Origin: Owenia fusiformis
Taxonomy: Eukaryota; Annelida; Polychaeta; Sabellida; Oweniidae
Direction of reading: 5' to 3'
NCBI GenBank assembly: GCA_903813345.2
Contig: CAIIXF020000008.1
Coordinates: forward strand, 19,762,822 to 19,826,821
Length of the DNA stretch: 64,000 bases
Positions 6,733-61,204 of the stretch are shown piece by piece. Position 1 is the first letter of the stretch, and the number at the start of each line of letters is the position of its first letter. The translations under genes were made by a program, and so were the position numbers. A model generated the notes under the pieces. The model worked only from the letters and a program-made list of their open reading frames with translations. It was not told where the DNA came from and searched no databases.

Positions 6733-8175
6733 GCACATAATCAATTCTGGTTAAATTCGCTATGAGAGCAAATTTAGAGAACATGAAAGCAATGTTAGAA
6801 ATACATTGTCAGTTAAAAAGTACAGAGTGTATAACAATAATAGTTAAACAAGTCATCAACTGTAGTTGTCTCTCAAGTTAATCTTACATCTGTTTTCACT
6901 TTTATATTCGTAGAATATTTGAGTAAAACAAAATATTTTGGATGTTAGTAATGCTTTAAAGTTCATCCTGTGAAAATTTTATCAGAAAAAGAGAAGGGTG
7001 ACTTGCTCTGCCATGGCTACTAGCCTATACTATGTTATTTCCATACTCTTCCTTTTGATAATCATGCAGGGCTCTTTCAGAGTGATGTAAGCTTTAAAGA
7101 TCCATATTACAGCCAGTCAACTATTGAAGAAGTATTGCAATTGGCTGGTTCAGCATTTCAAAACGTATTTTGAATGTAATTTCAGAGACTGAATTGTATA
7201 TTGAAATATGACATTAACATTTTGAGGGTCATGTAAAGTTTGTCAAAATGTATTACAATTTCTTGAGTTGTACAAATGTATGTTGAAATATGAAATTAAA
7301 GGCAGAATCAAATCTATGGGGGTGAAAAAATTACAAGCAATGTGTACAATTGACCTACCAATCTATTCCTTACAATCCCAAATACAATATCTCCCAAAAG
7401 ATTCACGCTATGTTATAAATTGGTGAAGTTATAATGGATTCAAAGTGCAAAAATGAGGGAAAATGTTTAAATTCTCCCAAATAATAAGAATGGTAACCAT
7501 TCTTATAGAAAAATAATATGTTATTGTAAATATCTTTAGTTTTCCTGATGAAATAAAGTATGCACTTTGGTGATTTTAAGAAAATAGACATGAAAAGAAA
7601 TGACATAATCCAGAAATATTCTAAAATTGAAACAATTTTTTGTTGGGCTGCTCGCTAGATCTGATTCTCTCTTTAAGAAGAACTTTTGAGCACATAAATT
7701 TTCTTGAGTGGTCAAATACTTTATTATTTTAAATAGACAAATATTTAATTATGAAAAACATAAATACCGTTGATGAATGCAAAAGAAATGTAAATGTAAA
7801 AACCAATATGTTAAGTATCAGAACTGAGTTACACAAGATGAATTAACTCCTGGATTACATATGAACAAAGTGAATTAATAAGATGTAGAATTAATAGGTA
7901 TACATTAATGCTAAATAAATGAGATACCTGTATTGTTATAACTAGAGACGATTTATGACATTAGTTTTATTCGTAGAATGTTTTTAATTATACCTGTAGT
8001 ATTACAAAGTAGAGTGGGATGTGGTGGGATCTTATTAGAGAAGGCCTAGCATTCTTGTAAAAGGAAAAACTTGGATAAAAAATCTGAAACATGATATGTT
8101 TCAATAATCATTATGGCAATGCGAGTTTGAATACACTGTAAGTTAAAATGATATAATAAACTCTTAAAAGGTATA
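6733..8175. other. Spacer between the transposon and channel copy B
   Basis: About the first 170 bases (to roughly 6890) continue the duplicated 3' flank of copy A, matching 12,355-12,500. The remainder is AT-rich with no supported ORF. The promoter and 5' UTR of copy B must lie at its right end, but no TATA or initiator element stands out with confidence. Confidence 0.5.
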
Positions 8176-9801
8176 ATGGACTCAGACGAAGAAGAAGGCA
8201 ACAAAGATGATCGAGGGACAATATCTCACTATATGAGTCTTATAACTACTCATGGTTGCCAACAGATATATCAAACAAAGTCAAGGCTGATCAAAATATG
8301 TTGGACAATTTTTCTTCTAGCAAGTGTTTGTGTGGCAACTTATTTTGTATCTGTCGCTATTAGTAATTACTACAAATACAGAACGCATGAGGAAACTTCT
8401 CTGAAGGACACATATGTTGACTTTCCAGCTGTTACTGTATGCAGACTTGATGATGATGGCATTGCTAGATTATTTTATGAAGAACCTGACAACAAACTTA
8501 TTAAACAAGAAGTAGAGGTAGTTAAAAAAGTATTTAATCTAGATGGTGATTTTAAAATTGAAGAACTATCATACCTACAACTAGTACTTTATGCTAAATA
8601 TGCACCGAGGTTACTGGATCGGCAAAGTATTCCTCAATCATTTCCTGCATTTACAGAATATCTGGCATCTGATTATGATCGTTTCATTGTGTCATGTCAG
8701 TTCAAAGAACATGATTGTAATAAAACACACTTTGTGGAAAGAAAGAATGGTCAAAATTTCAATTGTCTTACATTTAATCATTCTGACACAGTTAAGAAAG
8801 GAGGACCAATTTCAGGTCTTTCCTTGGTAATTTTCTTAGATGTGCTACAAGAAAGGGAACTTCTTAAGATGACTTTTATAGGTGCCTCGAAGAGGTTTAC
8901 TGATTCTGGAATTAAAGTGGCAATACATGAGCCAAATACAATTCCAGACATGATAAATGATGGATTTATTGTTGCCCCTGGTTACTCTACAAATATTGCC
9001 CTTAAGCAGTCCGTATTTGAGAAGATGGAGTCTCCCTGGGGAGAATGTGACAAGTCGAGAGTGAAGATAACTGACATTGCCAATGAAAACACTGATATTG
9101 TATACAACAGGGAAACATGTATGAAGATCTGCCAGCAGAGATACATTCAAGGAAAATGTGGATGTCTTAACATAATGCTCCCAGTCCCAAATGATTTGGA
9201 AAATGAGAAATACTGTTTTTATATTGACAAAGATAATATGCTTCAAAATCAAAACTGGACACAAGTTTTCCTTGAGGAATTGAAACATTTGGATTGTGAA
9301 AGTAAGCATCTTGAGGATCTACCAGATTCCTATGTTGGCCAGTATAAATGTGACTGTCCCCTGTCTTGTAGTTACAAAACATATGATTCTCTAATTTCAC
9401 AGGCAAACTGGCCACCTCAGAATGCAGTTCGCAGATTCATCGAAAAGTATTCGAATAATTTTCCTACTTTGTTAAATGGCACAGCCATTTACAAAGCATA
9501 TGAAGAGAACGATGCCTCTGCTGATTTGTACAACATGGTCGAGAACAACTTTCTAAAGTTGAATGTGTATCATAGGTCCTTGACTCTTCAGACCACGACC
9601 CAAGTAGCAGCATATACAGTTCAGAATTTGGTGTCTGAGATTGGTGGCATAATTGGTATATGTGTTGGTATGTCTGTACTCAGTATATTGGAACTTTTCC
9701 AATTAGTTGCAATTGTAATTCGCAACTTTGGGAAAATGGTGAATCAAAGAGGAAATATAAAGCATAGAGACATGGATTTGAATGAAGCGGAATTGGTGTA
9801 A
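8176..9801 (+). CDS. DEG/ENaC-family sodium channel subunit, copy B (complete)
   Basis: This complete 541-residue single-exon gene starts MDSDEEEGNKDD and has a typical length for the family. It has two membrane passes (M1 about residues 36-64, M2 about 483-515) around a large Cys-rich ectodomain. The marks are THGCQQI before M1, FPAVTVCR after M1, CDCPLSC and NWPP late in the ectodomain, and GGIIGICVGMS at the filter/M2. It is strongly similar to copy A except around residues 85-150, where several residues are lost and many changed; this corresponds to the finger/thumb region that shapes gating and ligand response. The acidic N-terminus (DSDEEEG) is intracellular. The C-terminal peptide RDMDLNEAELV is the founder of the minisatellite that follows. 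Lack of introns in both copies suggests either a retrogene ancestor or intron loss before duplication. Confidence 0.95.
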   Translation: MDSDEEEGNKDDRGTISHYMSLITTHGCQQIYQTKSRLIKICWTIFLLASVCVATYFVSVAISNYYKYRTHEETSLKDTYVDFPAVTVCRLDDDGIARLFYEEPDNKLIKQEVEVVKKVFNLDGDFKIEELSYLQLVLYAKYAPRLLDRQSIPQSFPAFTEYLASDYDRFIVSCQFKEHDCNKTHFVERKNGQNFNCLTFNHSDTVKKGGPISGLSLVIFLDVLQERELLKMTFIGASKRFTDSGIKVAIHEPNTIPDMINDGFIVAPGYSTNIALKQSVFEKMESPWGECDKSRVKITDIANENTDIVYNRETCMKICQQRYIQGKCGCLNIMLPVPNDLENEKYCFYIDKDNMLQNQNWTQVFLEELKHLDCESKHLEDLPDSYVGQYKCDCPLSCSYKTYDSLISQANWPPQNAVRRFIEKYSNNFPTLLNGTAIYKAYEENDASADLYNMVENNFLKLNVYHRSLTLQTTTQVAAYTVQNLVSEIGGIIGICVGMSVLSILELFQLVAIVIRNFGKMVNQRGNIKHRDMDLNEAELV

Positions 9802-11167
9802 AACATTAGAGACATGGAGTTAAAGGAAGAAGAAATGGTGTAAAACATTAGAGTCAAGGAGTTGAATGAAGCGGAATTGGTTTAAAACATTAGAGACATT
9901 GAGTTAAATGAAGTGGAATTGGTGTAAACCAAAAAGACAAGGAGTTAAATGAAGTGGGATTGGTGTAACACATTTGAGAGATGGAGTTAAATGAAGTGGA
10001 ATTGGTGTAAAACATTAGAGAGATGGAGTTAAATGAAGTGGAATTGGTGTAAAACATTAGAGAGATGGAGTTAAATGAAGTGGAATTGGTGTAAACCAAA
10101 AAGACAAGGAGTTAAATGAAGTGGGATTGGTGTAAAACATTAGAGAGATGGAGTTAAATGAAGTGGAATTGGTGTAAAACATTACTAAGAGAGATGGAGT
10201 TAAATGAAGTGGAATTGGTGTAAAACATTACTAAGAGAGATGGAGTTAAATGAAGAAGAATTGGCGTAACACATTAGAGAGATGGAGTTAAATGAAGTGG
10301 AATTGGTGTAAAACATTAGAGAGATGGAGTTAAATGAAGTGGAATTGGTGTAAAACATTAGAGAGATGGAGTTAAATGAAGTGGAATTGGTGTAAACCAA
10401 AAAGACAAGGAGTGAAATGAAGTGGGATTGGTGTAAAACATTAGAGAGATGGAGTTAAATGAAGTGGAATTGGTGTAAAACATTAGAGAGATGGAGTTAA
10501 ATGAAGTGGAATTGGTGTAAACCAAAAAGACAAGGAGTTAAATGAAGTGGGATTGGTGTAAAACATTAGAGAGATGGAGTTAAATGAAGTGGAATTGGTG
10601 TAAACCAAAAAAGACAAGGAGTTAAATGAAGTGGGATTGGTGTAAAACATTAGAGAGATGGAGTTAAATGAAGTGGAATTGGTGTAAAACATTACTAAGA
10701 GAGATGGAGTTAAATGAAGTGGAATTGGTGTAAAACATTACTAAGAGAGATGGAGTTAAATGAAGAAGAATTGGCGTAACACATTAGAGAGATGGAGTTA
10801 AATGAAGTGGAATTGGTGTAAAACATTAGAGAGATGGAGTTAAATGAAGTGGAATTGGTGTAAAACATTAGAGAGATGGAGTTAAATGAAGTGGAATTGG
10901 TGTAAACCAAAAAGACAAGGAGTGAAATGAAGTGGGATTGGTGTAAAACATTAGAGAGATGGAGTTAAATGAAGTGGAATTGGTGTAAAACATTAGAGAG
11001 ATGGAGTTAAATGAAGTGGAATTGGTGTAAACCAAAAAGACAAGGAGTTAAATGAAGTTGGATTGGTGTAAAACATTAGAGAGATGGAGTTAAATGAAGT
11101 GGAATTGGTGTAAACCAAAAAGACAAGGAGTTAAATGAAGTGGAATTGGTGTAAAACATTACTAAGA
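9802..11167 (+). repeat. About 42-bp minisatellite seeded by the copy B stop region
   Basis: There are roughly 32 head-to-tail units with core GAGTTAAATGAAGTGGAATT and GGTGTAAA. The last coding unit of copy B (encoding RDMDLNEAELV and TAA) is itself the first repeat. The first few downstream units stay in the coding frame, each closing with TAA (for example RDIELNEVELV then stop). Variant units start CCAAAAAGACAAGG or ACATTACTAAGAG. A higher-order period of 510 bp is visible, because the block at 10,200-10,400 recurs at 10,710-10,910. The array lies in the 3' UTR or just beyond it. Confidence 0.95.
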
Positions 11168-26298: not shown

Positions 26299-29200
26299 GC
26301 CTAAATGTTTATCTAGAAAAATTCTATTCATCTAAAATCTATAAAAATATGGGAGCTTTCAATTCAAACACTCCAAGGTATCATAGAATTCAAATTTGAC
26401 ATGAAAAAATGGATTTAAGGCAAGGAATTGGTAATTTTAAATTCAAAAATAACTGTTGAGCCTGCCCAGTTACGCTGTAGCTGCATATATTAAAGGCGAT
26501 TACAACTTTTGGTAACATTGGATTAGGGGATTCTGGAAAATTCTGTATATCGATACTTGAACAACATAATGTTCGCCAAATTATATATTGAATGCAGTTT
26601 TATGAGACACTAAACTAATATATCAATTTGTTTTACAGGTTTGAATCCATTGGTGTTATCGTAAAATATTATAAATGATCTATTTGTGTTTAATTTGGAA
26701 AGTGTTTTGATTAATTTGCCAAATTTGATGATATATGTAAGATTATCCCATAGAATATCCATGTGGAAATTCAGCTGTCTTAATTTTGAAGATATTTATT
26801 GTTAATAAGATGCTAATTGTAAATGCCAGAGATACTATGCATACAATTGGCGTAGATTTCAACCGCAATTTCATTTTACACTTTGCAAAAGAAGCACCAA
26901 ATTAAATAGAGATCAATGTAAAATTTAGACAAAGCGCTGAAGCACCATTTAATGGCAGTTCAAATATGCCAAGTGTGTCTCAGCCAATCAGCTTAGAGCA
27001 CTTCATATTATTTAAGAGTGCATTATGGTTTCATAATGAATTGAGCAGTGCCATTATTGGTAAAAATGAGACATCATCACAGTGCATTATGGTTTCATAG
27101 ATAACTGGGCGATATCATTTTTCATGGAAGTCGATGGTTTAACCAAATGTATTCGATTCGAAAAAAATTAGTAACCAGGAACAACAAGGGATTTTGTGAA
27201 GAAAAACTCCTTGGAGAGCTACCCTTACTCATCTCTATGTATCCTTTGTTGTGCTTATATATCAGAACAGAGATGTGAATAAGTAGACTCCACTGTCATG
27301 TTAATACAACTATAGGGTCATAGTTTTAAAATAGGCCAGACCACTTATTAATAACTTCTTGACATATTTGAAAGTCTGCAGTAACTGCTTTGTTGCTTTC
27401 TAATTTCTACTCTATTAATTGTAGGTTTTGAAATATGACCATGCTGCATTTTTCTATTGGTTTAAATGTACCTGATGAAAGCTTTTTCTTGTACAGAATT
27501 CACTTTTGGCAGAATATTATGAGAGTGAATGCAAAACATGGACAATGTATGATCAGCAACTCATGAGTGCGATGGGTGACGATTTTTATATGTCAACTGA
27601 AAATGACTGAAGATATTTCAACCCTAACCCAAAACCCTAAAGAAGAATCAGAATTTTGTTTGGCCAACTTTGGTTTGAGTGCATTGCCATTTATGTGCTT
27701 TCCATGGGTGCGATGGCATGACTGGGTCAATGCCAACTGATGTTTTTTAGGGGAAAGAACTAAAGTTTGATGTCAGAAACTGAATGAATCTAGTTCTAGT
27801 TCTCCCCCAAATACAGACTTCCGATTTGAAAAATTATTTCTAAAAATGATCTAGTTTTTTTAATTCATAACGTAATTTGTAGCTTTTGACAAGTATTGAT
27901 AGACCAGTATCTATTGGAATGATCTTGATGAAGAAAACATCAGATAAAATCTTTATTTTTAAACCATTCCAATTTTACGGATAGCAAACTGAAATGGCTT
28001 TGAACCCCCTTCCCCTTATTAGATTTATTATGTCATCACCAAGAAGTGGTGACATATTATTATGGTCATCGTTTGGCGGCGCTTGGTGATCGGTGGTTGG
28101 CAGTTGGCGTCTGTAACTGTAACAAATTCTCACAACTTCCAATAACTTAACAAATACTGTTTAGACTGGCTTCAATTTTTTTCTAAATCATCTACAAGTT
28201 TTCAGAAGTTCAAATCTGACTTTACATTTAAGATTTGACCTTCAATGACTTTTTCAAGGTCAAAAAAGGTTAAAAAGGTCAAAACGGTCTTTTTTCAACT
28301 TGCTTCAAATTGACCAAATTTTTTTTTCAAAATCACCTAAAAGTTATCAGAAGTTCAAATCTGACTTTTGATTTAAGATATGACCTTCAATGACCTTCTC
28401 AAGGTCAAAAAGGTCTTTTTTCAACTTGCTTCAAATTGACCTATTTTTTATCAAAATCATCTACAAGTTCTCAGAAGTTCAAATCTGACTTTGGATTTGA
28501 GATTTTACCCTCAATGACCTTCTCAGGGTCAAAAAACTTGCTTTAAATTGACCAATTTTTTTCAAAATCATCTACAGAGTTCTCAGAAATTCAAATCTGA
28601 CTTAAGATTGAACTAATAATATTGTGAGCAATTAAGTGGTGACATTTCGTCATGTTAATGCCTTGTTTAGTTTTTGATCCAACATTGATCTTTTGATGCC
28701 TTCCCTTAATTTGAATTACTCAAACCTTGCTTAATATCCACTTTTTGTGTTATTTAAAATATATGATGACTTGGAGAAGCCTGGAAAAAGCCTAAATGTT
28801 TATCTAGAAAAATTCTATTCATCTAAAATCTATAAAAATATGGGAGCTTTCAATTCAAACACTCCAAGGTATCATAGAATTCAAATTTGACATGAAAAAA
28901 TGGATTTAAGGCAAGGAATTGGTAATTTTAAATTCAAAAATAACTGTTGAGCCTGCCCAGTTACGCTGTAGCTGCATATATTAAAGGCGATTACAACTTT
29001 TGGTAACATTGGATTAGGGGATTCTGGAAAATTCTGTATATCGATACTTGAACAACATAATGTTCGCCAAATTATATATTGAATGCAGTTTTATGAGACA
29101 CTAAACTAATATATCAATTTGTTTTACAGGTTTGAATCCATTGGTGTTATCGTAAAATATTATAAATGATCTATTTGTGTTTAATTTGGAAAGTGTTTTG

Positions 29201-32200
29201 ATTAATTTGCCAAATTTGATGATATATGTAAGATTATCCCATAGAATATCCATGTGGAAATTCAGCTGTCTTAATTTTGAAGATATTTATTGTTAATAAG
29301 ATGCTAATTGTAAATGCCAGAGATACTATGCATACAATTGGCGTAGATTTCAACCGCAATTTCATTTTACACTTTGCAAAAGAAGCACCAAATTAAATAG
29401 AGATCAATGTAAAATTTAGACAAAGCGCTGAAGCACCATTTAATGGCAGTTCAAATATGCCAAGTGTGTCTCAGCCAATCAGCTTAGAGCACTTCATATT
29501 ATTTAAGAGTGCATTATGGTTTCATAATGAATTGAGCAGTGCCATTATTGGTAAAAATGAGACATCATCACAGTGCATTATGGTTTCATAGATAACTGGG
29601 CGATATCATTTTTCATGGAAGTCGATGGTTTAACCAAATGTATTCGATTCGAAAAAAATTAGTAACCAGGAACAACAAGGGATTTTGTGAAGAAAAACTC
29701 CTTGGAGAGCTACCCTTACTCATCTCTATGTATCCTTTGTTGTGCTTATATATCAGAACAGAGATGTGAATAAGTAGACTCCACTGTCATGTTAATACAA
29801 CTATAGGGTCATAGTTTTAAAATAGGCCAGACCACTTATTAATAACTTCTTGACATATTTGAAAGTCTGCAGTAACTGCTTTGTTGCTTTCTAATTTCTA
29901 CTCTATTAATTGTAGGTTTTGAAATATGACCATGCTGCATTTTTCTATTGGTTTAAATGTACCTGATGAAAGCTTTTTCTTGTACAGAATTCACTTTTGG
30001 CAGAATATTATGAGAGTGAATGCAAAACATGGACAATGTATGATCAGCAACTCATGAGTGCGATGGGTGACGATTTTTATATGTCAACTGAAAATGACTG
30101 AAGATATTTCAACCCTAACCCAAAACCCTAAAGAAGAATCAGAATTTTGTTTGGCCAACTTTGGTTTGAGTGCATTGCCATTTATGTGCTTTCCATGGGT
30201 GCGATGGCATGACTGGGTCAATGCCAACTGATGTTTTTTAGGGGAAAGAACTAAAGTTTGATGTCAGAAACTGAATGAATCTAGTTCTAGTTCTCCCCCA
30301 AATACAGACTTCCGATTTGAAAAATTATTTCTAAAAATGATCTAGTTTTTTTAATTCATAACGTAATTTGTAGCTTTTGACAAGTATTGATAGACCAGTA
30401 TCTATTGGAATGATCTTGATGAAGAAAACATCAGATAAAATCTTTATTTTTAAACCATTCCAATTTTACGGATAGCAAACTGAAATGGCTTTGAACCCCC
30501 TTCCCCTTATTAGATTTATTATGTCATCACCAAGAAGTGGTGACATATTATTATGGTCATCGTTTGGCGGCGCTTGGTGATCGGTGGTTGGCAGTTGGCG
30601 TCTGTAACTGTAACAAATTCTCACAACTTCCAATAACTTAACAAATACTGTTTAGACTGGCTTCAATTTTTTTCTAAATCATCTACAAGTTTTCAGAAGT
30701 TCAAATCTGACTTTACATTTAAGATTTGACCTTCAATGACTTTTTCAAGGTCAAAAAAGGTTAAAAAGGTCAAAACGGTCTTTTTTCAACTTGCTTCAAA
30801 TTGACCAAATTTTTTTTTCAAAATCACCTAAAAGTTATCAGAAGTTCAAATCTGACTTTTGATTTAAGATATGACCTTCAATGACCTTCTCAAGGTCAAA
30901 AAGGTCTTTTTTCAACTTGCTTCAAATTGACCTATTTTTTATCAAAATCATCTACAAGTTCTCAGAAGTTCAAATCTGACTTTGGATTTGAGATTTTACC
31001 CTCAATGACCTTCTCAGGGTCAAAAAACTTGCTTTAAATTGACCAATTTTTTTCAAAATCATCTACAGAGTTCTCAGAAATTCAAATCTGACTTAAGATT
31101 GAACTAATAATATTGTGAGCAATTAAGTGGTGACATTTCGTCATGTTAATGCCTTGTTTAGTTTTTGATCCAACATTGATCTTTTGATGCCTTCCCTTAA
31201 TTTGAATTACTCAAACCTTGCTTAATATCCACTTTTTGTGTTATTTAAAATATATGATGACTTGGAGAAGCCTGGAAAAAGCCTAAATGTTTATCTAGAA
31301 AAATTCTATTCATCTAAAATCTATAAAAATATGGGAGCTTTCAATTCAAACACTCCAAGGTATCATAGAATTCAAATTTGACATGAAAAAATGGATTTAA
31401 GGCAAGGAATTGGTAATTTTAAATTCAAAAATAACTGTTGAGCCTGCCCAGTTACGCTGTAGCTGCATATATTAAAGGCGATTACAACTTTTGGTAACAT
31501 TGGATTAGGGGATTCTGGAAAATTCTGTATATCGATACTTGAACAACATAATGTTCGCCAAATTATATATTGAATGCAGTTTTATGAGACACTAAACTAA
31601 TATATCAATTTGTTTTACAGGTTTGAATCCATTGGTGTTATCGTAAAATATTATAAATGATCTATTTGTGTTTAATTTGGAAAGTGTTTTGATTAATTTG
31701 CCAAATTTGATGATATATGTAAGATTATCCCATAGAATATCCATGTGGAAATTCAGCTGTCTTAATTTTGAAGATATTTATTGTTAATAAGATGCTAATT
31801 GTAAATGCCAGAGATACTATGCATACAATTGGCGTAGATTTCAACCGCAATTTCATTTTACACTTTGCAAAAGAAGCACCAAATTAAATAGAGATCAATG
31901 TAAAATTTAGACAAAGCGCTGAAGCACCATTTAATGGCAGTTCAAATATGCCAAGTGTGTCTCAGCCAATCAGCTTAGAGCACTTCATATTATTTAAGAG
32001 TGCATTATGGTTTCATAATGAATTGAGCAGTGCCATTATTGGTAAAAATGAGACATCATCACAGTGCATTATGGTTTCATAGATAACTGGGCGATATCAT
32101 TTTTCATGGAAGTCGATGGTTTAACCAAATGTATTCGATTCGAAAAAAATTAGTAACCAGGAACAACAAGGGATTTTGTGAAGAAAAACTCCTTGGAGAG

Positions 32201-35200
32201 CTACCCTTACTCATCTCTATGTATCCTTTGTTGTGCTTATATATCAGAACAGAGATGTGAATAAGTAGACTCCACTGTCATGTTAATACAACTATAGGGT
32301 CATAGTTTTAAAATAGGCCAGACCACTTATTAATAACTTCTTGACATATTTGAAAGTCTGCAGTAACTGCTTTGTTGCTTTCTAATTTCTACTCTATTAA
32401 TTGTAGGTTTTGAAATATGACCATGCTGCATTTTTCTATTGGTTTAAATGTACCTGATGAAAGCTTTTTCTTGTACAGAATTCACTTTTGGCAGAATATT
32501 ATGAGAGTGAATGCAAAACATGGACAATGTATGATCAGCAACTCATGAGTGCGATGGGTGACGATTTTTATATGTCAACTGAAAATGACTGAAGATATTT
32601 CAACCCTAACCCAAAACCCTAAAGAAGAATCAGAATTTTGTTTGGCCAACTTTGGTTTGAGTGCATTGCCATTTATGTGCTTTCCATGGGTGCGATGGCA
32701 TGACTGGGTCAATGCCAACTGATGTTTTTTAGGGGAAAGAACTAAAGTTTGATGTCAGAAACTGAATGAATCTAGTTCTAGTTCTCCCCCAAATACAGAC
32801 TTCCGATTTGAAAAATTATTTCTAAAAATGATCTAGTTTTTTTAATTCATAACGTAATTTGTAGCTTTTGACAAGTATTGATAGACCAGTATCTATTGGA
32901 ATGATCTTGATGAAGAAAACATCAGATAAAATCTTTATTTTTAAACCATTCCAATTTTACGGATAGCAAACTGAAATGGCTTTGAACCCCCTTCCCCTTA
33001 TTAGATTTATTATGTCATCACCAAGAAGTGGTGACATATTATTATGGTCATCGTTTGGCGGCGCTTGGTGATCGGTGGTTGGCAGTTGGCGTCTGTAACT
33101 GTAACAAATTCTCACAACTTCCAATAACTTAACAAATACTGTTTAGACTGGCTTCAATTTTTTTCTAAATCATCTACAAGTTTTCAGAAGTTCAAATCTG
33201 ACTTTACATTTAAGATTTGACCTTCAATGACTTTTTCAAGGTCAAAAAAGGTTAAAAAGGTCAAAACGGTCTTTTTTCAACTTGCTTCAAATTGACCAAA
33301 TTTTTTTTTCAAAATCACCTAAAAGTTATCAGAAGTTCAAATCTGACTTTTGATTTAAGATATGACCTTCAATGACCTTCTCAAGGTCAAAAAGGTCTTT
33401 TTTCAACTTGCTTCAAATTGACCTATTTTTTATCAAAATCATCTACAAGTTCTCAGAAGTTCAAATCTGACTTTGGATTTGAGATTTTACCCTCAATGAC
33501 CTTCTCAGGGTCAAAAAACTTGCTTTAAATTGACCAATTTTTTTCAAAATCATCTACAGAGTTCTCAGAAATTCAAATCTGACTTAAGATTGAACTAATA
33601 ATATTGTGAGCAATTAAGTGGTGACATTTCGTCATGTTAATGCCTTGTTTAGTTTTTGATCCAACATTGATCTTTTGATGCCTTCCCTTAATTTGAATTA
33701 CTCAAACCTTGCTTAATATCCACTTTTTGTGTTATTTAAAATATATGATGACTTGGAGAAGCCTGGAAAAAGCCTAAATGTTTATCTAGAAAAATTCTAT
33801 TCATCTAAAATCTATAAAAATATGGGAGCTTTCAATTCAAACACTCCAAGGTATCATAGAATTCAAATTTGACATGAAAAAATGGATTTAAGGCAAGGAA
33901 TTGGTAATTTTAAATTCAAAAATAACTGTTGAGCCTGCCCAGTTACGCTGTAGCTGCATATATTAAAGGCGATTACAACTTTTGGTAACATTGGATTAGG
34001 GGATTCTGGAAAATTCTGTATATCGATACTTGAACAACATAATGTTCGCCAAATTATATATTGAATGCAGTTTTATGAGACACTAAACTAATATATCAAT
34101 TTGTTTTACAGGTTTGAATCCATTGGTGTTATCGTAAAATATTATAAATGATCTATTTGTGTTTAATTTGGAAAGTGTTTTGATTAATTTGCCAAATTTG
34201 ATGATATATGTAAGATTATCCCATAGAATATCCATGTGGAAATTCAGCTGTCTTAATTTTGAAGATATTTATTGTTAATAAGATGCTAATTGTAAATGCC
34301 AGAGATACTATGCATACAATTGGCGTAGATTTCAACCGCAATTTCATTTTACACTTTGCAAAAGAAGCACCAAATTAAATAGAGATCAATGTAAAATTTA
34401 GACAAAGCGCTGAAGCACCATTTAATGGCAGTTCAAATATGCCAAGTGTGTCTCAGCCAATCAGCTTAGAGCACTTCATATTATTTAAGAGTGCATTATG
34501 GTTTCATAATGAATTGAGCAGTGCCATTATTGGTAAAAATGAGACATCATCACAGTGCATTATGGTTTCATAGATAACTGGGCGATATCATTTTTCATGG
34601 AAGTCGATGGTTTAACCAAATGTATTCGATTCGAAAAAAATTAGTAACCAGGAACAACAAGGGATTTTGTGAAGAAAAACTCCTTGGAGAGCTACCCTTA
34701 CTCATCTCTATGTATCCTTTGTTGTGCTTATATATCAGAACAGAGATGTGAATAAGTAGACTCCACTGTCATGTTAATACAACTATAGGGTCATAGTTTT
34801 AAAATAGGCCAGACCACTTATTAATAACTTCTTGACATATTTGAAAGTCTGCAGTAACTGCTTTGTTGCTTTCTAATTTCTACTCTATTAATTGTAGGTT
34901 TTGAAATATGACCATGCTGCATTTTTCTATTGGTTTAAATGTACCTGATGAAAGCTTTTTCTTGTACAGAATTCACTTTTGGCAGAATATTATGAGAGTG
35001 AATGCAAAACATGGACAATGTATGATCAGCAACTCATGAGTGCGATGGGTGACGATTTTTATATGTCAACTGAAAATGACTGAAGATATTTCAACCCTAA
35101 CCCAAAACCCTAAAGAAGAATCAGAATTTTGTTTGGCCAACTTTGGTTTGAGTGCATTGCCATTTATGTGCTTTCCATGGGTGCGATGGCATGACTGGGT

Positions 35201-37090
35201 CAATGCCAACTGATGTTTTTTAGGGGAAAGAACTAAAGTTTGATGTCAGAAACTGAATGAATCTAGTTCTAGTTCTCCCCCAAATACAGACTTCCGATTT
35301 GAAAAATTATTTCTAAAAATGATCTAGTTTTTTTAATTCATAACGTAATTTGTAGCTTTTGACAAGTATTGATAGACCAGTATCTATTGGAATGATCTTG
35401 ATGAAGAAAACATCAGATAAAATCTTTATTTTTAAACCATTCCAATTTTACGGATAGCAAACTGAAATGGCTTTGAACCCCCTTCCCCTTATTAGATTTA
35501 TTATGTCATCACCAAGAAGTGGTGACATATTATTATGGTCATCGTTTGGCGGCGCTTGGTGATCGGTGGTTGGCAGTTGGCGTCTGTAACTGTAACAAAT
35601 TCTCACAACTTCCAATAACTTAACAAATACTGTTTAGACTGGCTTCAATTTTTTTCTAAATCATCTACAAGTTTTCAGAAGTTCAAATCTGACTTTACAT
35701 TTAAGATTTGACCTTCAATGACTTTTTCAAGGTCAAAAAAGGTTAAAAAGGTCAAAACGGTCTTTTTTCAACTTGCTTCAAATTGACCAAATTTTTTTTT
35801 CAAAATCACCTAAAAGTTATCAGAAGTTCAAATCTGACTTTTGATTTAAGATATGACCTTCAATGACCTTCTCAAGGTCAAAAAGGTCTTTTTTCAACTT
35901 GCTTCAAATTGACCTATTTTTTATCAAAATCATCTACAAGTTCTCAGAAGTTCAAATCTGACTTTGGATTTGAGATTTTACCCTCAATGACCTTCTCAGG
36001 GTCAAAAAACTTGCTTTAAATTGACCAATTTTTTTCAAAATCATCTACAGAGTTCTCAGAAATTCAAATCTGACTTAAGATTGAACTAATAATATTGTGA
36101 GCAATTAAGTGGTGACATTTCGTCATGTTAATGCCTTGTTTAGTTTTTGATCCAACATTGATCTTTTGATGCCTTCCCTTAATTTGAATTACTCAAACCT
36201 TGCTTAATATCCACTTTTTGTGTTATTTAAAATATATGATGACTTGGAGAAGCCTGGAAAAAGCCTAAATGTTTATCTAGAAAAATTCTATTCATCTAAA
36301 ATCTATAAAAATATGGGAGCTTTCAATTCAAACACTCCAAGGTATCATAGAATTCAAATTTGACATGAAAAAATGGATTTAAGGCAAGGAATTGGTAATT
36401 TTAAATTCAAAAATAACTGTTGAGCCTGCCCAGTTACGCTGTAGCTGCATATATTAAAGGCGATTACAACTTTTGGTAACATTGGATTAGGGGATTCTGG
36501 AAAATTCTGTATATCGATACTTGAACAACATAATGTTCGCCAAATTATATATTGAATGCAGTTTTATGAGACACTAAACTAATATATCAATTTGTTTTAC
36601 AGGTTTGAATCCATTGGTGTTATCGTAAAATATTATAAATGATCTATTTGTGTTTAATTTGGAAAGTGTTTTGATTAATTTGCCAAATTTGATGATATAT
36701 GTAAGATTATCCCATAGAATATCCATGTGGAAATTCAGCTGTCTTAATTTTGAAGATATTTATTGTTAATAAGATGCTAATTGTAAATGCCAGAGATACT
36801 ATGCATACAATTGGCGTAGATTTCAACCGCAATTTCATTTTACACTTTGCAAAAGAAGCACCAAATTAAATAGAGATCAATGTAAAATTTAGACAAAGCG
36901 CTGAAGCACCATTTAATGGCAGTTCAAATATGCCAAGTGTGTCTCAGCCAATCAGCTTAGAGCACTTCATATTATTTAAGAGTGCATTATGGTTTCATAA
37001 TGAATTGAGCAGTGCCATTATTGGTAAAAATGAGACATCATCACAGTGCATTATGGTTTCATAGATAACTGGGCGATATCATTTTTCATG
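26299..37090. repeat. Tandem array: 4.33 copies of a 2,491-bp unit
   Basis: The unit starts GCCTAAATGTTTATCTAG at 26,299, 28,790, 31,281, 33,772 and 36,263, always exactly 2,491 bases apart. The last copy breaks off after TCATTTTTCATG at 37,090. In every stretch I compared the copies were identical. The unit has no long ORF. It contains the GTCACCACC-family repeat and one acceptor-like site TTTGTTTTACAG followed by GTTTGAATCC (first copy at 26,639). The array fills most of the intron between the shared BTB exons and the first zinc-finger terminal exon. Confidence 0.97.
28030..28667. repeat. GTCACCACC-family repeat within the 2,491-bp unit
   Basis: It starts ATGTCATCACCAAGAAGTGG (itself a short hairpin) and ends GTGGTGACATTTCGTCATG. 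The interior is a minisatellite of about 120 bp with AAGTTCAAATCTGACTTT and CTTCAATGACCTTCTCAAGG in each unit. It recurs at 30,521-31,158, 33,012-33,649 and 35,503-36,140 as part of the array. Confidence 0.8.
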
Positions 37091-39333: not shown

Positions 39334-40627
39334 CGAGGGAAGATCCAAAAGTTTCCGGCCTAACATAGTTCCCGATGTCTGAGAGCAACCATTCTTCACA
39401 GTTCAAATGTTGCTTATGTATGAACATAATTTATGCATATGATTAACCTCTAGGGGTCACAGCCTCATTTTGAGAATATTCATAATGAGGTCAGGTCACA
39501 GTGGCTGCACAATGGAGAAAACTGAATATAGAGCTGTGATAAAGTTTCTATATCAAGAAGAAAATGGAGGGCAGGAAATCTACGATAGACTTAAGGATGT
39601 GTATGGGGAAGGTGCTCCCTCCTATTCTACTGTAAAATTTTGGGTGGCTGAATTTAAACGTGGACGGGAATCAATTGATGATGCAACATGTTCTGGAAGA
39701 CCTAAAGATGTCACTACAGATAGAAATGTTGATCTTGTACATCGAACAATATTGGAAGATAGGCGGAAATCTATACGTGAACTTGTAGAAGAAACTGGAT
39801 TATCATATGGTACCGTTTGTAGAATAATTCATGAAGATTTACACATGCAAAAGTTAAGCTCAAGATGGGTGCCCCGTATGCTCACAGAGGACATGAAAAC
39901 AAAACGAGTTGCTGTTGCAAGAGAGCTTTTGGACATGTATAACACTGATCCACAAGGTTTTATGGAGAGAATAGTCACTTGTGATGAAACATGGGTGCGT
40001 CATTTTGAGCCTTCAACCAAACATGAGTCAATGCAATGGAAACATATGGGGTCTCCACCCCCAAAGAAGTTTCGCACCACCCCATCCAACAAAAAGATGA
40101 TGGCCACTATTTTCTGGGACTGTGAAGGTCCTATCTTAGTAGACTACCTTCCAAGAGGTACTACAATGAACGGAGAATATTATGCTGCTTTGTTGCGTAC
40201 TTTAAAAGCTAGACTTGATGAAACCAGGCCACACAAAGTCCGTCTTGGAGTTTTGCATCAACAGGACAATGCACCTGTTCACACAAGCCAAGTTGCTCGT
40301 GATGCAGCGGAAGAATGCCATCTGGAATTATTACCGCACGCACCCTATTCTCCAGATCAAGCACCCAGTGACTATTACCTATTTGGGAAACTCAAAAAAT
40401 CTCTACGAGGGCAACGCTATGATGATGATGATGAGGTCAAGATAGCTGTTAACCAGTGGTTGGAGGGTCATGCTCCTGATTTCTTCAGAACTGGACTTGA
40501 GATGCTGCCAAGAAGATGGGCCAAGTGCATCGAAGTACAGGGAGACTACATTGAAAAATGACACTATCATTTTGAAAATCCATCAACTAGAACTATGTTA
40601 GGCCGGAAACTTTTGGATCTTCCCTCG
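39334..40627 (+). mobile_element. Complete mariner-type transposon (1,294 bp)
   Basis: The terminal inverted repeats of about 38 bp are identical on both ends (CGAGGGAAGATCCAAAAGTT...), with TA target duplications at 39,332-39,333 and 40,628-40,629. The element size is typical for mariner, and one intact transposase frame lies between the ends. It inserted in the intron between zinc-finger exons 1 and 2, in the sense direction. Perfect ends and an open frame indicate a recent arrival. Confidence 0.97.
39512..40561 (+). CDS. Mariner transposase (DD34D), intact
   Basis: This is a cut-and-paste transposase of 349 residues. The chosen start is MEKTEYRAVIKFLYQ, as is usual for the family; an upstream in-frame ATG at 39,470 would add 14 residues. 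The N-terminal half has the helix-turn-helix DNA-binding region (YSTVKFWVAEFKRG, SGRPKDV) and a second one near TGLSYGTVCRIIHEDL. The family signature is WVPRMLTEDMK. The catalytic triad is Asp in VTCDETWV, Asp in HQQDNAPVHTS and, exactly 34 residues later, Asp in APSDYYLF. No stop or frameshift is seen. A run of four Asp (YDDDDEVK) comes from a GAT repeat. Confidence 0.97.
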   Translation: MEKTEYRAVIKFLYQEENGGQEIYDRLKDVYGEGAPSYSTVKFWVAEFKRGRESIDDATCSGRPKDVTTDRNVDLVHRTILEDRRKSIRELVEETGLSYGTVCRIIHEDLHMQKLSSRWVPRMLTEDMKTKRVAVARELLDMYNTDPQGFMERIVTCDETWVRHFEPSTKHESMQWKHMGSPPPKKFRTTPSNKKMMATIFWDCEGPILVDYLPRGTTMNGEYYAALLRTLKARLDETRPHKVRLGVLHQQDNAPVHTSQVARDAAEECHLELLPHAPYSPDQAPSDYYLFGKLKKSLRGQRYDDDDEVKIAVNQWLEGHAPDFFRTGLEMLPRRWAKCIEVQGDYIEK

Positions 40628-53858: not shown

Positions 53859-56800
53859 TTACACTCTATTTTTGCTGCCACTTGAGCTTTTCTCCACATT
53901 TCTCTCACAAAATTCCTCAATGGTTGATATGATTCTAAACTGCTGCAGAGTTTTTAGATGTTTGATGAGATTGCCTAGAGTCGCATCCTCTTGTTTGGCC
54001 CAGTCCTTTAAAAGAGCATCACATGGGTTATTCTCGAGTTGGTAGAGCATCACTTCAGTCAGAGTCTTCCCCAGTATACCTACATCAATCAAAATATAGA
54101 GCCTACTGAATCATATGTAGTGAACAACCAAGGGAACAGCGAGGGTATATGAGAGGATGGTTTAAGACAGGCATACCTTTGATCATTACTGTAGTGCGAT
54201 CATAAATACAAGATTTACAATTTTAAAAATTATGGTGACTTTGGGGTAGAGAAGTGTTACCTGCCAAACCAGTGTAATCATTTCCTAGAACTGATGGTAG
54301 ACTGAGGAGTTGTCGTATTTTAACATACAACTCGTGTGGCAAATCGTAGATGGGCGTTTCATCGGTGAGTTTTACGTCTTCCTGTTTTTGATTAGGTGTG
54401 GCCTTTGCACTGTTATTGACTAGTTTTGCATTAATGGACAGCGTTGGCGATTCCTTGAGCGAACCACAACCGAGGTATCCACTTGGTAATACCTACAAAA
54501 ATATGCATGTCATCATTGAATAATGAATTCTCAGACGCAGGGCAACAATTCTAGGTATACGCTGTTATTTAACAATTAACCATTGCATAGACGAGGATCT
54601 TCCACATTTCAAAACGTATATAATTCTATCTAAACATACAGCTTTCTTTAAATATTTTTACTCTAAATATATTAGTTAGGTTAATCCCCGGCCTCGGAAT
54701 GCATCATTTAGGAAATATATTTACTTTTCTTGTAGACTTCTAAGTCGTTCTGTGCTCAGGGAATGACATTTCTGACCTGTTGTGGGGAAACTTTTGAAGA
54801 TGCTTATTTATTTTAGGAATTTATGAAAATACCTTTCCATGTTGAAGTTGCACTTTTTGGCCAGAGCACCATACTGTAATGCGTTTATGATAACCAATAG
54901 ATGTCCCCATCATCGGAATAATGTGCACCTGAAAAATACCCAAGATGTTCAGCATTGCCCACAATCATGGAATGATAAAAAGCTTAACAATGAAAACGAT
55001 GACATATAGATCTTGACATATCAAATAAATAAGTCAATGATTTACGTTGAATGACTATGTAATGACAATTTTAAGTTTTTAATAGTTTAGATTGTATTGT
55101 AATGAAACTGTCTTGAAAGATATTTATAAAAATGTTTATCCGATCTGGCTAGACCCGGTGGAAATATTGAACATCAATCATGTAAGCCTGGTAAAATTTA
55201 TTAAGGTAATTTTGTAAGGTCTATTTCATAACACTGAAAATCATTTTTTTCCAACTCTTAAATCGTGACATATAGGTCTATGGGCAACGCCTCTCCAAAA
55301 AATACTGAATACGTAATATTGACTGAAACTGCATTTTATCTTCTTTACCCTAACCTCGCCTATTAAAATAAGCATAACCTCTTTCCAACAACAAATCCAA
55401 ATCAGTTTATACGTTAGTATAAACTAGCCTTATAATATCGACGAAATGAATGATCAAACCAAACCAACCTTTTCATCAATTGCGTGTTCTGGATCGGTAC
55501 ACACGGGACAAAGGGGTCCGATGGTGTATGTAACTTTATTAAAGTCTCTCTTGGTGATGGCTTGGAGCTTGTTGTTGAGAAAGCCAAGAACTTTGACGGG
55601 GCTCTCCGAGTCCTCACACCTAATAATCACCTTTATAAGTGTTGATCTAGTGTCAGGATCCAATGATAAATGGTACGCATGACCGGATTTGTACGTGCAC
55701 CAAGCATTGAACCTATACACAGGGGCATCGAGGATGTTGAATGATGGCTGGTATTCAATCTGATGTCGGAGACTGGCGCAAAGTAGTCTCACAAACATAG
55801 ACTGTGGGTGAAAATGGTTAAAACCAATGAAATAAACATGGTCATTAGTTGTGCACTTGGATTTCCATTCGCTGTGATCTGGTACGATCTCTGGTAATAG
55901 TTGGGGGATGATGTAATGGGATGCATTGTTACCGTTTTGGACCTTCATTGAACACATAAGGTCATAGTCATCGAAGAGAGATGCAAATTTGGCCAATGTG
56001 TCAGAGGTCATCTGGGGGTACTTTTCTTTGATGATATGATTTAGGAGACTCTGTGATGCGATACCCTTTGTATGGAGTGTTTTATATGCCGCTACCAGTC
56101 CTGGTTTAATTTCGGATTTTTTGGGCTGTGTAACTACAGCAGCAACAATGTCAATCAGGATTTGGGGATCAGTGACGACGATATCACCCAGACCCGGTAT
56201 GTCTTTGTATATGATTTCTCCCATATCATGGAACACTTTAAGCAACTTCGTGAACTGTTCCTTGCTTTTGATTTGGCAATCGGTTTCCTTGCAGATCTCA
56301 TATAAAATATCATAATCAATAACAAATGTTTGGCTGGAGTTGTGGTTTGTGATCTGTTCGGAACTGACATACACGGCTTCCCGTTTGGAAAGTTTCCGGG
56401 TCAGCCACCACATGTCAATAAAGTCTTGTTTTCTACTTGGGCAACCACTGTTCTGTTTCCGCATTTTTTCCAGTACTGATCCAAACGCGAAGAACCGGAG
56501 AGGCAACTGTTTCCTTTGAAACTCTCGTTCAGTGCCACATCTCCGTATGGTTTTCAAAAGATATGAATAGTCATGGCAGTCAACCCTAGATGAGTTTTCC
56601 ACACAGAATACGAGGGTATCGCGTGGATTCCACATTAGAAGCTTCAAATAGTCGCTTGGTAAATGGTCGTCTATGTAGTTTTCAATAGTTTTAATTTTAG
56701 ATGGTGAAAGAGATTGATCATTGCGATGGGTACCGACAAGAATGATGCAAGGATCATTGTGGTTGGTATGGAACAAAACTGAGTTGATCCAGTATGTCAA

Positions 56801-58225
56801 AGACTTCATCATCTCCTCGGGAGCTGCGAAGGCATCTGGTAGTTTGAACACAATAACATAAACGGCATGTTCGGTCATAAAAACATGATGAGTGGAATGG
56901 TAAAGTTTATGACCTGCGAAATCACGGATCACCAAAGTAATGTCTTCATTGGGCAATTCCTCCGATGAAGTATCTGCCAATTTTAGCCAGGTTTTATTTA
57001 ATTCAGCCGTTGAGATGACGTCATTGATAGTTGCATAATAGTCTGTATAGACGTGGGTCAACTCTATAAGTGCCAGAAGACCAAGTGATATTATGATATG
57101 ATAAGGACCCGTTGAAGCGAATGACCAACCGAAGAATCTACTGAAGGGTGGTCCAAGGAGCATTCCAAATACATACATAGCCCACCTTCGATATGGATTG
57201 GGAATACCAAGTTCACAAAACACTTTAACAACTGTTATTTTTCCAATTCTGTCTGCTTTTATAATGCTTACCCAGCATACTCCGTACATGAAGAATATAC
57301 AGCAGAGTGACACATCGCCCATCATTAGAATTCTAAATAGAAGGGTAATTGATGCAGCTATTAACTTAAGTCGCGTAGACATCATCTTTGATACAGCCAT
57401 TCCGATATTGACAAACACAATGCCAAGCACCATTCTCAGGATATGACTGGTGCTCACTTTTCCTGGAGTTGCCATCAATATGACGGTTGTAAGTCCCGTG
57501 ACTACAACTGCACCAAATGATTTCAATAGAGTCGGGGTGAGGACCCCAAAAACAATATGCATACCGATGCATAATCCCCAACAGAATAAAGATTTTGTTT
57601 CTTCCGTTGAATTAACGTTTGTCTGATGCAGAATAAGCACATCTAAAAAAGACCCAGTTGCAGTAATTGTCACCGCTAAAATTGGACCATCTCGCACACC
57701 TAACAACCTCCAGGCAACAAGGCATGTTACTACAATGCCAGCGGGCAACACGGGGAGAGGCCGTAGCGAGTCGATCTGAACGATAGAGTAGAATATCAAC
57801 GCCAACAACAATACACACCCAACCTTACAATAGCATTGGATAATGCTTCTTTTCCCTGGCAATTCACTATTTTTCAAATGTAGGTATATCTGTTCATTTA
57901 GGCGATCTTTATAATCGGTCGCTGAAGAATGTATCTGTGATAGTATCTTCCACTTTGAGTCAACAGTGCATGTTTCAACTAACTCCTGTTCAATGGCAAC
58001 GGTGCTCTCTTCATTTGGGTCGAATGGTTCTCTCGTTAGTAATCGCTTCAGACTTGTTTTTCCCTGGCGTGGCTCACCAAGAATGTTTACGATCAAACGT
58101 TTGCAAGGTTGCTTGACTGTCTTCAGGACATTCTGTTTTGCTCTGTGGCTCAGCTCACCTTGGAAGTGCCCGTATGCAGGAGTCAGTCCAATTCTCCATA
58201 GTGCTTCTTTATCCACTTCAGACAT
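53859..58225 (-). CDS. ROCO GTPase with membrane domain nested in Roc, COR and Death domains
   Basis: Exons are 58225-55469, 54928-54833, 54492-54261 and 54079-53859 (donors GT, acceptors AG, phases agree), giving 1,101 residues. Roc begins at about residue 42: P-loop GEPRQGKTS (50-58), then switch-I-like EESTVAIEQ (T75). About ten hydrophobic helices follow, roughly residues 130-395 (for example VGCVLLLALIFYSIV, IVFVNIGMAV, IIISLGLLALIEL). The GTPase fold then resumes: G3 DFAGHK (435-440), G4 VGTHRND (497-503, TH in place of NK) and ENSS (543-546). COR spans about 575-790 (DMGEIIYKDIPGLGDIVVTDPQ). CPVC (906-909) and a later WC-H cluster may bind metal. A C-terminal Death domain spans about 1001-1085 (GNDYTGLAG, ATLGNLIKHLKTLQQ). 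There are no leucine-rich repeats and no kinase. It is likely a membrane-anchored, GTP-controlled signalling or death adaptor; that role is inferred from the domains. Confidence 0.93.
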
Positions 58226-58600
58226 TCATATAAGCAAGAGATGGGTCGTTTATGTTAATTGACATGATCAGTATTCTTTGGGGTTAACGTAGTAATTACT
58301 TGTCATTGAATTGTTGCCTTTCAAACGCCTGGAAAATACAAAGAGGGTTGTTTGTGGCTTTGAGTAAATTTGAATTGGCATCTCATCAAGCAATCACACT
58401 CGTATGCAGTACTTATCCGGACAGACGTTTATCATAGAATTTGGGGGGAATAATTTATCGTAGTCGTAGTGTAAAACGGTTTGCATGTATTGTTATTACT
58501 TGCTTACCAAAAAAAACGTTGCTATAGCAACCAGTCTACAGAGTACATCTTGACCCAGATGACTCGATCAAGTGCATTTCTTTATATTTATGTTATACGA

Positions 58601-59311
58601 CAGGGTGATCAGAAAAAGTTGACCGTTGTTTTTTCCTCATAAATGCCATGATCGGGTTCATTTTTGGCATAAATGTACATTAGTAAATGCGTGACATTAT
58701 GTAAAAGTGTAAAATGTCAATCTTCTTCCATTTTTATTTGATGACTATTTCAGAATATGCTCCGTATGTGCTCCCTGGCACTAAAAACAAACTTAGATTC
58801 TGCGCTCAAAATCACTAATCATCTGACACATTCCTCAACCGTTATAGCTCTTATTCTAGCTTTAGTTGCTCATTTAGGATAATATGATTTCCATATACAT
58901 CACTGGCTTTTGGTGGGCCCAGAAAAAATTCTAGGGCCGCAAAAATTTTGTAGGGCCTCAAAAAAGGGCCTTTTAGCCAAAATTTGGAATTAAAGGGCCA
59001 TTTCTTGATAATTTAGCCTACTGTGTCCCAATAAACTTTATTCTTTGAATTGACATTGCCATTGAGGAGAAAATGGGCTTCATCTGAAAAACATAATTCA
59101 TTGCGCGCAGAATCCAAGTTTGTCTTCTGTGCCAGGGAGCACATTTGGAGCTTGTCCTAAAATATGTCCTAAAATGGAAGAAGATTGACAGTTCACACTT
59201 TGATATAATGTCATGCATTGACTAATGTACATTTGTGCCAAAAATGAACCTGATCATGGCATATATGTTGAAGTTAAAAAAACCAACGGTCCACTTTTTC
59301 TGGTCACCCAG
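58601..59311. mobile_element. 711-bp foldback element with arms of over 200 bp
   Basis: The left end CAGGGTGATCAGAAAAAGTT and the right end CTTTTTCTGGTCACCCAG are inverted, with homology running about 220 bp inward (CATGATC.GGTTCATTTTTGGC, CAATCTTCTTCCATTTT, GTGCTCCCTGGCAC). TA follows the right end; the left flank reads CGA, so the duplication is not clear. Its CAGGGTG start resembles the MITE at 24,660. It lies about 375 bases upstream of the ROCO start codon. Confidence 0.8.
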
Positions 59312-61204
59312 TACTTGACAATGTTTTGTTAAAAATAGACTGTCGAGTATTTCTATCGACATCTATGTAAAGCATCCTGTTATGGGTTACTATAACCTTT
59401 GAAGTCGTGTAATCTAAATGTATGTTACTTGTACCATCTTCATCAAGAATTTTATTCAGTTGAAAACTACTACAAATATCTCAAATATTTTAATTGAGAC
59501 ACTCTCAGGGGCAGTGCTGACTCTGTTAAATTCACAAATGACATATACTGTGTATATTGCTTTATTTGTGAGGACGATCGCGTCAATAGATAGACCTATC
59601 GTTATTTGCGCTGATTAAACAAAAGTTCGTGAGTTGACTGAACTACGATACACGTAGCTTACAATTCGATATAATATTGAAGCTTGTAAATATTTGTATA
59701 TGTGCGATGTTCTTTTCTTAAATAACTAAATACACTTCATACCCGTTTAATGCCGTTATGCCGTTCATCTCGAGAAAAGGGTGTATTAAGCTCGTATTTA
59801 TCACAAAATATAACGAATTTTATGTGAGTTACAGTGCTATACATGTAAGTCTACAAATATTTTTTAACCTTTTATCCGAGTCTTGATGCCATTTTGCTTT
59901 GAATCCCCAAAGGCTAGTGCTAGCCTAGTACACTAGCATTGTAGACCTAATTCGAAACAATTCCACATATACAATTTATCAACACTGCTTAAAATCAGCG
60001 GATGGATGGGCAATCATCCAGAAATAGTCATACTTGTTAAATTAACGGTAAGATCCTACTTACCCTAAGTTTGTCAGGCAATAATAGCCATTATTTCCAA
60101 AACCTCCGTGATAGTAACATGAAACATCGTATCAGTCTTACTTGAACATTAAATTATAATCTCGAGCTTAAAATTCTAAGAACTGGTCTCTGAGTTGAGA
60201 TAACATTGCTCACGAACTAAAACAACATTGGATCGCACTAACTTTATAGTCATTGGAAATCCCATATACACTCCACTTCATATATTAGTGTCAGCAGGAA
60301 GTTTTCATTTTATAGCATGTCAAAGATTGTCAATGTTTGAATATGATTATGTTCCTTTATTATAATTGTTTGAAAAATGATAACATTTTTAATCGCCAAA
60401 CATAGGTATTTTTTATGAGTGATGCAAAAGAGGACTTCTGGTTACAACCCAAACTTATGGAGGGGAGTGTAAACGTAAGTCTGTGAATCATCAAATCATT
60501 CTTATAGAGTGATTCTTAGTAACAATATATTCTTACTGCAGCTTTCTCGGGAATGGTATGACTAAACATATAGTTGATAAGAACGATGTTACTAACAATT
60601 CTTTGAAACAATATATTCAGTGACCACTCTAGGGTACTCACTCGGGTAACTTTGTGCCCCTTCCCCCCCCCCCCATCTCGTGACCATCCAATTGCATCTT
60701 CGGGAGCGATCAATGTGTTCTGATGATAATCCCCTGAAATCGCCTGTTTGGAATTTCTACAGGATATCAACAGCCTGGGGACAAGTGGATCATGCAAAAT
60801 ATGAACAAATATTCCACAAATCAATTTTTATGTGTTATATCCATCCGTCTCTAGAGTATGTGTAAATAAACACCTTCATTTATATTCTTACAGCACACGC
60901 AAACAACTAAAACTAGACGATATGTTTAACATACCACAATATACACCACCTCACTCTATAGTCATTAATAAAAAATCAGTCATATTCTTATACATGTAAG
61001 TATTCTATAGTAAAAGATATAATATACATGTATACACCACGCATTACCAACTCAGTACACTAGTATAGGGGACTTTTTAAACATTTTTAACGTAATCCTG
61101 GGCCTCAGCCTCTTTCTGTTCGTCAACTAGATAGATGGCCATGATGATGTATTTCTCATGGTGATGGCGATGGCCTTGGTGTATTAATATGGCAAATATC
61201 AATA

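Follow-up and report, generated by a model that had tools for sequence, protein, structure and literature searches.

A ROCO-Death protein of the annelid Owenia fusiformis with a Roc GTPase domain split by a predicted multi-pass membrane domain

Among the systems described closest to the protein considered in the present study, which is encoded on the minus strand of a 64,000-nucleotide stretch of the Owenia fusiformis genome (contig CAIIXF020000008.1:19,762,822-19,826,821; hereafter the window), are the metazoan ROCO proteins that end in a Death domain, namely DAPK1 and those of Trichoplax. ROCO proteins with death domains have been reported in Trichoplax (PMC4104024), and the mechanism of the ROCO GTPase is still described as being under debate (PMC6337361). 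DAPK1 and the Trichoplax proteins share with the window protein the Roc motifs, a COR-A region C-terminal to Roc and a Death domain; in contrast, the Roc domain of the window protein is cut by a hydrophobic, predicted multi-pass domain, and no match to a kinase, LRR, ankyrin or WD40 domain was obtained for it in Pfam. With respect to the DAPK1 subfamily, the Death domain is present and a kinase before Roc-COR was not matched. In ROCO proteins of the brown alga Ectocarpus, the C-terminus carries a domain with homology to transmembrane proteins (PMC4104024). Like the window protein, they join ROCO to membrane-like sequence in one chain, but this sequence comes after Roc-COR, with no description of it as splitting Roc.

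The window protein is, by its matches to Roc and COR, a member of the ROCO family, set apart by a split Roc. A membrane domain inside the Roc fold had been proposed in a first-pass annotation made from the sequence, and the proposed layout is borne out by two Roc pieces standing around a hydrophobic bundle, an arrangement repeated in a paralogue. An even number of helices, direct coupling of the nucleotide state to the bundle and a role in death or inflammation, which the annotation also put forward, would be candidate properties of the protein. In the KAP P-loop NTPases (Kidins220/ARMS), membrane segments reportedly lie inside the NTPase fold, and Aravind et al. in 2004 are said to have suggested signalling complexes on the cytosolic side. 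Of the systems compared, this group offers the nearest parallel for the placing of membrane segments within such a fold; KAP has been placed among the ATPase classes (PMC9599734), and Kidins220 has four transmembrane segments (PMC4632323). Membership of the window protein in KAP was ruled out, with no KAP family found in Pfam to E 1 for the frame or to E 10 for its pieces. Arf proteins are not known to carry a membrane-spanning insert. The interswitch hairpin of Arf moves on activation, favouring membrane association (PMC2823772), and the corresponding hairpin would be tied to the membrane in the window protein, an analogy of mechanism only.

The gene opens with 923 codons (58225-55454, minus strand) from an ATG at 58225 that directly follows an in-frame TGA, and a GT donor after 55469 leaves 919 coding codons in exon 1, which reads as a single uninterrupted exon (58225-55469), as had been claimed. 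Joining four exons (58225-55469, 54928-54833, 54492-54261 and 54079-53859) yields a predicted protein of 1,101 residues, and the length given in the first-pass annotation is thereby regained. Exons 2, 3 and 4 have AG/GT borders with entry phases 0, 0 and 1, and the exon borders were inferred from the DNA sequence and the matching paralogue. The features of the gene are as follows.

55469 to 58225, minus strand: exon 1, residues 1-919, with the N-terminal extension, Roc N-half, predicted membrane insert, Roc C-half and COR (open frame, ATG, GT donor)
57941 to 58102, minus strand: Roc N-half, residues 42-95, with the P-loop, switch-I T75 and strand 2 ending near SKWKIL (Pfam Roc, 3dpu, identity with the paralogue)
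56954 to 57940, minus strand: insert separating strand 2 from strand 3, residues 96-424 (flanked by the two Roc matches; stop-free)
57041 to 57844, minus strand: hydrophobic bundle, residues 128-395, with about 8-10 predicted membrane helices (hydropathy and topology scoring; similar pattern in the paralogue)
56591 to 56953, minus strand: Roc C-half, residues 425-545, with strand 3, DFAGHK at 435-440 and THRN at 499-502 (Pfam Roc, LRRK2 chain 6xaf)
55895 to 56350, minus strand: COR-A, residues 626-777 (Pfam PF16095, E 1.4e-12)
54833 to 54928, minus strand: exon 2, phase 0, 32 residues, end of the COR region (AG/GT borders; 33-codon counterpart in the paralogue, read by eye)
54261 to 54492, minus strand: exon 3, with a linker and the beginning of the Death domain (AG/GT borders; counterpart in the paralogue, L005 6753 onward)
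53859 to 54079, minus strand: exon 4, remaining Death domain and stop codon (Pfam Death, E 1.7e-9, on the spliced tail)

The Pfam Roc profile (PF08477) matched the exon-1 frame in two stretches (E 5.8e-14, 52.8 bits), the best of which places profile positions 51-117 at residues 424-500. Taken alone, the first 108 residues scored 21.3 bits (E 3.2e-4), short of the 27-bit cut-off, with profile positions 3-43 aligned to residues 47-87. Residues 88-423 thus fall between profile positions 43 and 51, so that Roc is not contiguous, as it usually is in the family, although contiguity is perhaps no defining feature. Among PDB sequences, the C-half found its counterpart in the LRRK2 Roc chain 6xaf (residues 426-502, E 1.2e-6) and the N-half in the bacterial Roco chain 3dpu (residues 42-77, E 0.004). 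Both Roc halves are therefore present, because the Pfam, LRRK2 and bacterial Roco matches cover the N- and C-terminal parts. The motifs listed in the first-pass annotation were located, namely the P-loop GEPRQGKTS at residues 50-58, the switch-I threonine at 75, the G3 motif DFAGHK and, at the G4 position, THRN. In terms of the strands of the Ras fold, Roc is cut, judging by sequence, past switch I and ahead of G3, in the turn that joins strands 2 and 3 (the interswitch hairpin). COR followed by a C-terminal Death domain was recovered after Roc, with 48.2 bits for COR-A against a cut-off of 35.3. Among solved sequences, the Death domain came closest to p75NTR (E 4.4e-4), with a weak match to MyD88 (E 0.086). 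Roc, COR-A, Death and a Ras match overlapping Roc are the only Pfam families in the protein, and the N-terminal extension ahead of Roc comprises 41 residues. Upstream of the start codon, at 58600-59312, lie nested inverted repeats with arms of 102, 64 and 35 nucleotides (83-89% complementary), which have the look of a foldback element or miniature inverted-repeat transposable element.

A genome search with the exon-1 frame (498 Mb, 525 contigs; 12 matches from 15 candidates) revealed a second split gene on the same contig, 15 Mb away (C8:35027789-35030425), with an open frame of 907 codons. Its layout is that of the window gene, with an intron at the matching place, a 33-codon exon and a two-exon Death domain in equal phases, all borders being read by eye. 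In Pfam, Roc was again found in two stretches (E 5.6e-14) and Death at E 1.1e-8, and COR-A scored 34.8 bits in one search, just below the cut-off, and 39 bits in another, above it. A degenerate pattern for DFAGHKLYH occurred at two places in the genome, both of them in the split genes, and the reversed control at none. Intron 2 of the paralogue (L005 5480-6580) has inverted matching ends, read by eye, which suggest an inserted transposon.

The insert diverges between the two copies under coding-type selection. The exon-1 proteins are 47% identical overall, and the Roc halves are the best conserved regions, with 44 of 54 residues identical in the N-half (81.5%) and 76 of 120 in the C-half (63.3%); the bundle retains 91 of 267 (34.1%), compared with 163 of 342 in COR (47.7%), and the minor parts retain 18 of 40 (N-terminal extension), 11 of 31 (linker) and 9 of 25 (second linker). 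Over residues 96-424 (323 codons), differences number 163, 122 and 221 at codon positions 1, 2 and 3. Stop codons are absent from the 329 codons of the window insert and from the 321 of the paralogue, while the other five frames hold 11-27 and 9-22, respectively. In the bundle, the proportions of nonsynonymous and synonymous differences (pN and pS) are 0.447 and 0.791, the latter saturated, so that no ratio of the corresponding rates (dN/dS) is given. Of the 176 bundle positions that differ, 112 keep their hydrophobic class; shuffling gives 90.2 on average, and 7 of 10,000 shuffles reach 112. The copies share two acidic residues inside predicted helices, D195 and E388, as well as the loop motif LGI-NPYRRW, and this suggests that the bundle is more than an anchor.

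The first-pass annotation had placed about 265 residues with about ten helices between the Roc halves. The residue count agrees with the bundle (268 residues), whereas the insert itself is longer (329 residues) and ten lies at the upper end of the best helix counts obtained (6, 10, 8 and 9). On the insertion scale, eight segments were found per copy, within residues 133-393 in the window protein and 130-394 in the paralogue, and none in COR; among six control open reading frames of the window, two segments were found in each of the two ASIC-like channels, as expected, and none in the three zinc-finger frames or the transposase. Kyte-Doolittle and Goldman-Engelman-Steitz (GES) windows likewise concentrated the segments at residues 129-394 in both copies. 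One extra Kyte-Doolittle segment fell in COR, at 680-698 in the window protein (1.56) and at 648-666 in the paralogue (1.91), where the GES value was 0.89 too. Topology scoring of the two sequences together, with the N-terminus fixed inside, was run at three settings with a positive-inside term and one without. With the charge term, the best counts were 6, 10 and 8 helices (scores 16.81, 24.66 and 34.18), and without it the best count was 9, so that three of the four settings gave 8-10; counts beyond 10 scored sharply lower. A cruder single-copy scoring with a weaker charge term favoured 8 helices in the paralogue (23.64 versus 21.86 for 7) and 9 in the window protein. Thus, the predicted helix number is 8-10, of either parity, with a lean toward even. 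A candidate N-S-T glycosylation site is found at residues 205-207 of the window copy only, in the loop between predicted helices 3 and 4, which is predicted to lie outside.

Herein, we propose that the window protein acts as a Roc-COR-Death switch embedded in a membrane, with the bundle serving as anchor of the GTPase and probably also as its regulator, a reading that we hold with somewhat better than even confidence. A polytopic membrane domain would be inserted in the strand 2/3 turn of a metazoan ROCO protein of the Roc-COR-Death type, the Roc halves would most likely form one joint fold below the bundle, on its cytosolic side, and COR and Death would follow in the cytosol. Because the P-loop, switch I and G3 are strongly conserved in both copies, nucleotide binding seems to have been kept, and this would require the Roc halves to be on one side of the membrane, folded together. 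With no LRR, ankyrin or WD40 domain matched and only a short N-terminal extension, the bundle is the likeliest part to serve as anchor and as input. A ligand, lipid or partner on the bundle might shift the interswitch hairpin and, with it, the switch regions; by analogy with Arf, the hairpin could be pushed by the bundle or could push it. Movement of the switch regions would in turn affect COR dimerisation or the state of the bound nucleotide. Switch II of bacterial Roco touches the most conserved patch of COR (PMC6337361), and a similar contact may be the route to COR dimers and then to Death clustering. The Death domain, once exposed or clustered, would lead to signalling.

A further and distinctly more tentative proposal is that the protein represents a receptor class, in which a ten-helix bundle on the interswitch hairpin senses a signal from the membrane or from outside the cell and itself sets the nucleotide state of Roc, driving COR dimerisation and Death assembly. 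In that case, receptor, G protein and death adaptor would be one chain, a possible single-chain receptor of Death-domain signalling in an animal. The protein would also represent a Ras-like G domain split by a predicted multi-pass membrane domain. A natural ROCO protein with a bundle wired to the interswitch hairpin would also offer a direct test of hairpin control over Roc.

The insertion site was compared in five ROCO-type loci beyond the two split genes (L008, L009, L010, L011 and L012); the Roc model has at least 151 matches in the genome (150 of 207 candidates scored). L009, L011 and L012 are single-frame LRR-Roc genes with a contiguous Roc match, COR-A being above the cut-off in L009 but not in L011 or L012. 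L008 and L010 are multi-exon genes with long polar filler apparently at the same site of Roc, according to exons read by eye; their introns were not screened for hydrophobic exons. Like the window gene, they appear to be opened after strand 2 (SKWQI or VIWKT compared with SKWKI) and before WDFAGQ or WDFGGQ; in L008, the strand ends in DRSKWQI, compared with DSKWKI in the window gene, and the filler is followed by WDFAGQ. Unlike the window insert, which is hydrophobic and contained in one exon, their filler is polar in the frames read and seemingly lies in separate exons. Thus, this ROCO group seems to tolerate insertions at the strand 2/3 site, and what is new here seems to be the kind of insert rather than the opening of the site itself. 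The split-Roc layout was not met in the open-access literature searched for ROCO, in the extracts available and with most subscription journals outside that scope. A further ROCO frame, with contiguous Roc and COR-A, was observed in G000 C1 near 56917383-56918546, within an open frame of 4,937 codons, which is very long for a single exon.

Several points weigh against the proposed switch. The analysis covers one animal genome, the topology scoring was home-made, and AlphaFold2 gave mean predicted local distance difference test (pLDDT) values of 36.9 for the exon-1 protein and 40.6 for residues 110-400, both unusable. Moreover, nine helices scored best in the two-copy scoring without the charge term (18.09) and in the single-copy scoring of the window protein (23.09 versus 22.26 for 8), and nine helices would place the Roc halves on opposite sides of the membrane. 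These counts favour the view that Roc is a relic, in which the halves, through an odd helix number or a decayed G4, form no working GTPase and the protein serves as a membrane scaffold. The G4 position of the window copy points the same way, since it reads THRN where the paralogue has THRD; however, THRN is also found in the L008 ROCO frame, nothing is lost from the P-loop, switch I or G3, and 81.5% of the N-half is identical between the copies. We regard a relic Roc as improbable. The view that the real Roc is contiguous, the insert being intronic, confined to a splice variant or produced by an assembly join, gains from an exon model built on DNA sequence, but the coding-type divergence, the contrast between two stop-free inserts and the 9-27 stops of the other frames, and the repetition of the layout at two loci 15 Mb apart led us to rule out an intron or assembly chimera. 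We give this explanation next to no weight, since the coding-type divergence and the lack of a stop in either copy make an intron or assembly error a very improbable source of the insert.

The more serious competitor to a regulatory bundle is a bundle that merely fixes a ROCO-Death protein to the membrane, the Roc cycle being conventional and run by other partners. The bundle is the least conserved large region, and the site seems to accept long filler in L008 and L010, both of which fit a role in anchoring; one or two helices would be enough for that purpose, however, and D195, E388 and the loop motifs have been kept between the diverged copies. We consider anchoring alone unlikely, although it deserves to be taken seriously. 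The same acidic residues within the predicted helices, together with up to ten helices and the glycine- and proline-containing motifs DGPIL and TPTLLKS, are compatible with a transport fold, and the bundle might accordingly be imagined as an effector: Roc, through its nucleotide state, would gate a channel, a transporter or a pore, while the Death domain would bring in partners. In Pfam and NCBIfam, no family of transporters or channels scored above its cut-off, and the PDB sequence matches included none; an effector role appears to us a poor prospect.

Searches for the origin of the insert returned no convincing relative beyond the paralogue. In Pfam to E 10, the pieces of the insert gave sub-threshold matches only (DUF5367, E 0.53, in the window copy; YlaH, E 0.1, in the paralogue), while in NCBIfam nothing matched the window frame or its insert, and the paralogue drew only CrgA (E 0.18). 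A profile search of PDB sequences with the insert returned three matches at E 0.06-0.072 to streptogramin/virginiamycin B lyases, which were taken as chance. Within its own genome, the insert matched itself, the paralogue and one chance sequence at E 9.5 (3 rows, 8 candidates scored). Pattern searches yielded 15 matches and no relatives in IMG/VR, where both patterns lay in strand 2 and the linker and hardly probed the bundle, and 55 stretches and no relatives in prokaryote genomes, where the patterns were of Roc and COR and say little on the bundle. An internal duplication within the bundle (about residues 128-257 versus 258-395) found no support (E 0.44).

Elsewhere in the window, a similar pair of ASIC/ENaC-type channel frames was observed at 2-1609 and 8152-9801 (PF00858, E 6e-74 and 1.7e-73), and a 42-bp tandem array at 9758-11161 overlaps the end of the second frame. 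Four 124-bp tandem arrays with like statistics occupy 28275-36076; successive starts (28275, 30766, 33257 and 35748) are separated by an exact interval of 2,491 bp, which suggests that a 2.5-kb unit was recently duplicated in tandem or that the assembly contains a duplication. In addition, an open mariner-type transposase frame of 372 amino acids is present at 39443-40561 (Transposase_1, E 7.3e-23; HTH_48, E 2.5e-9).

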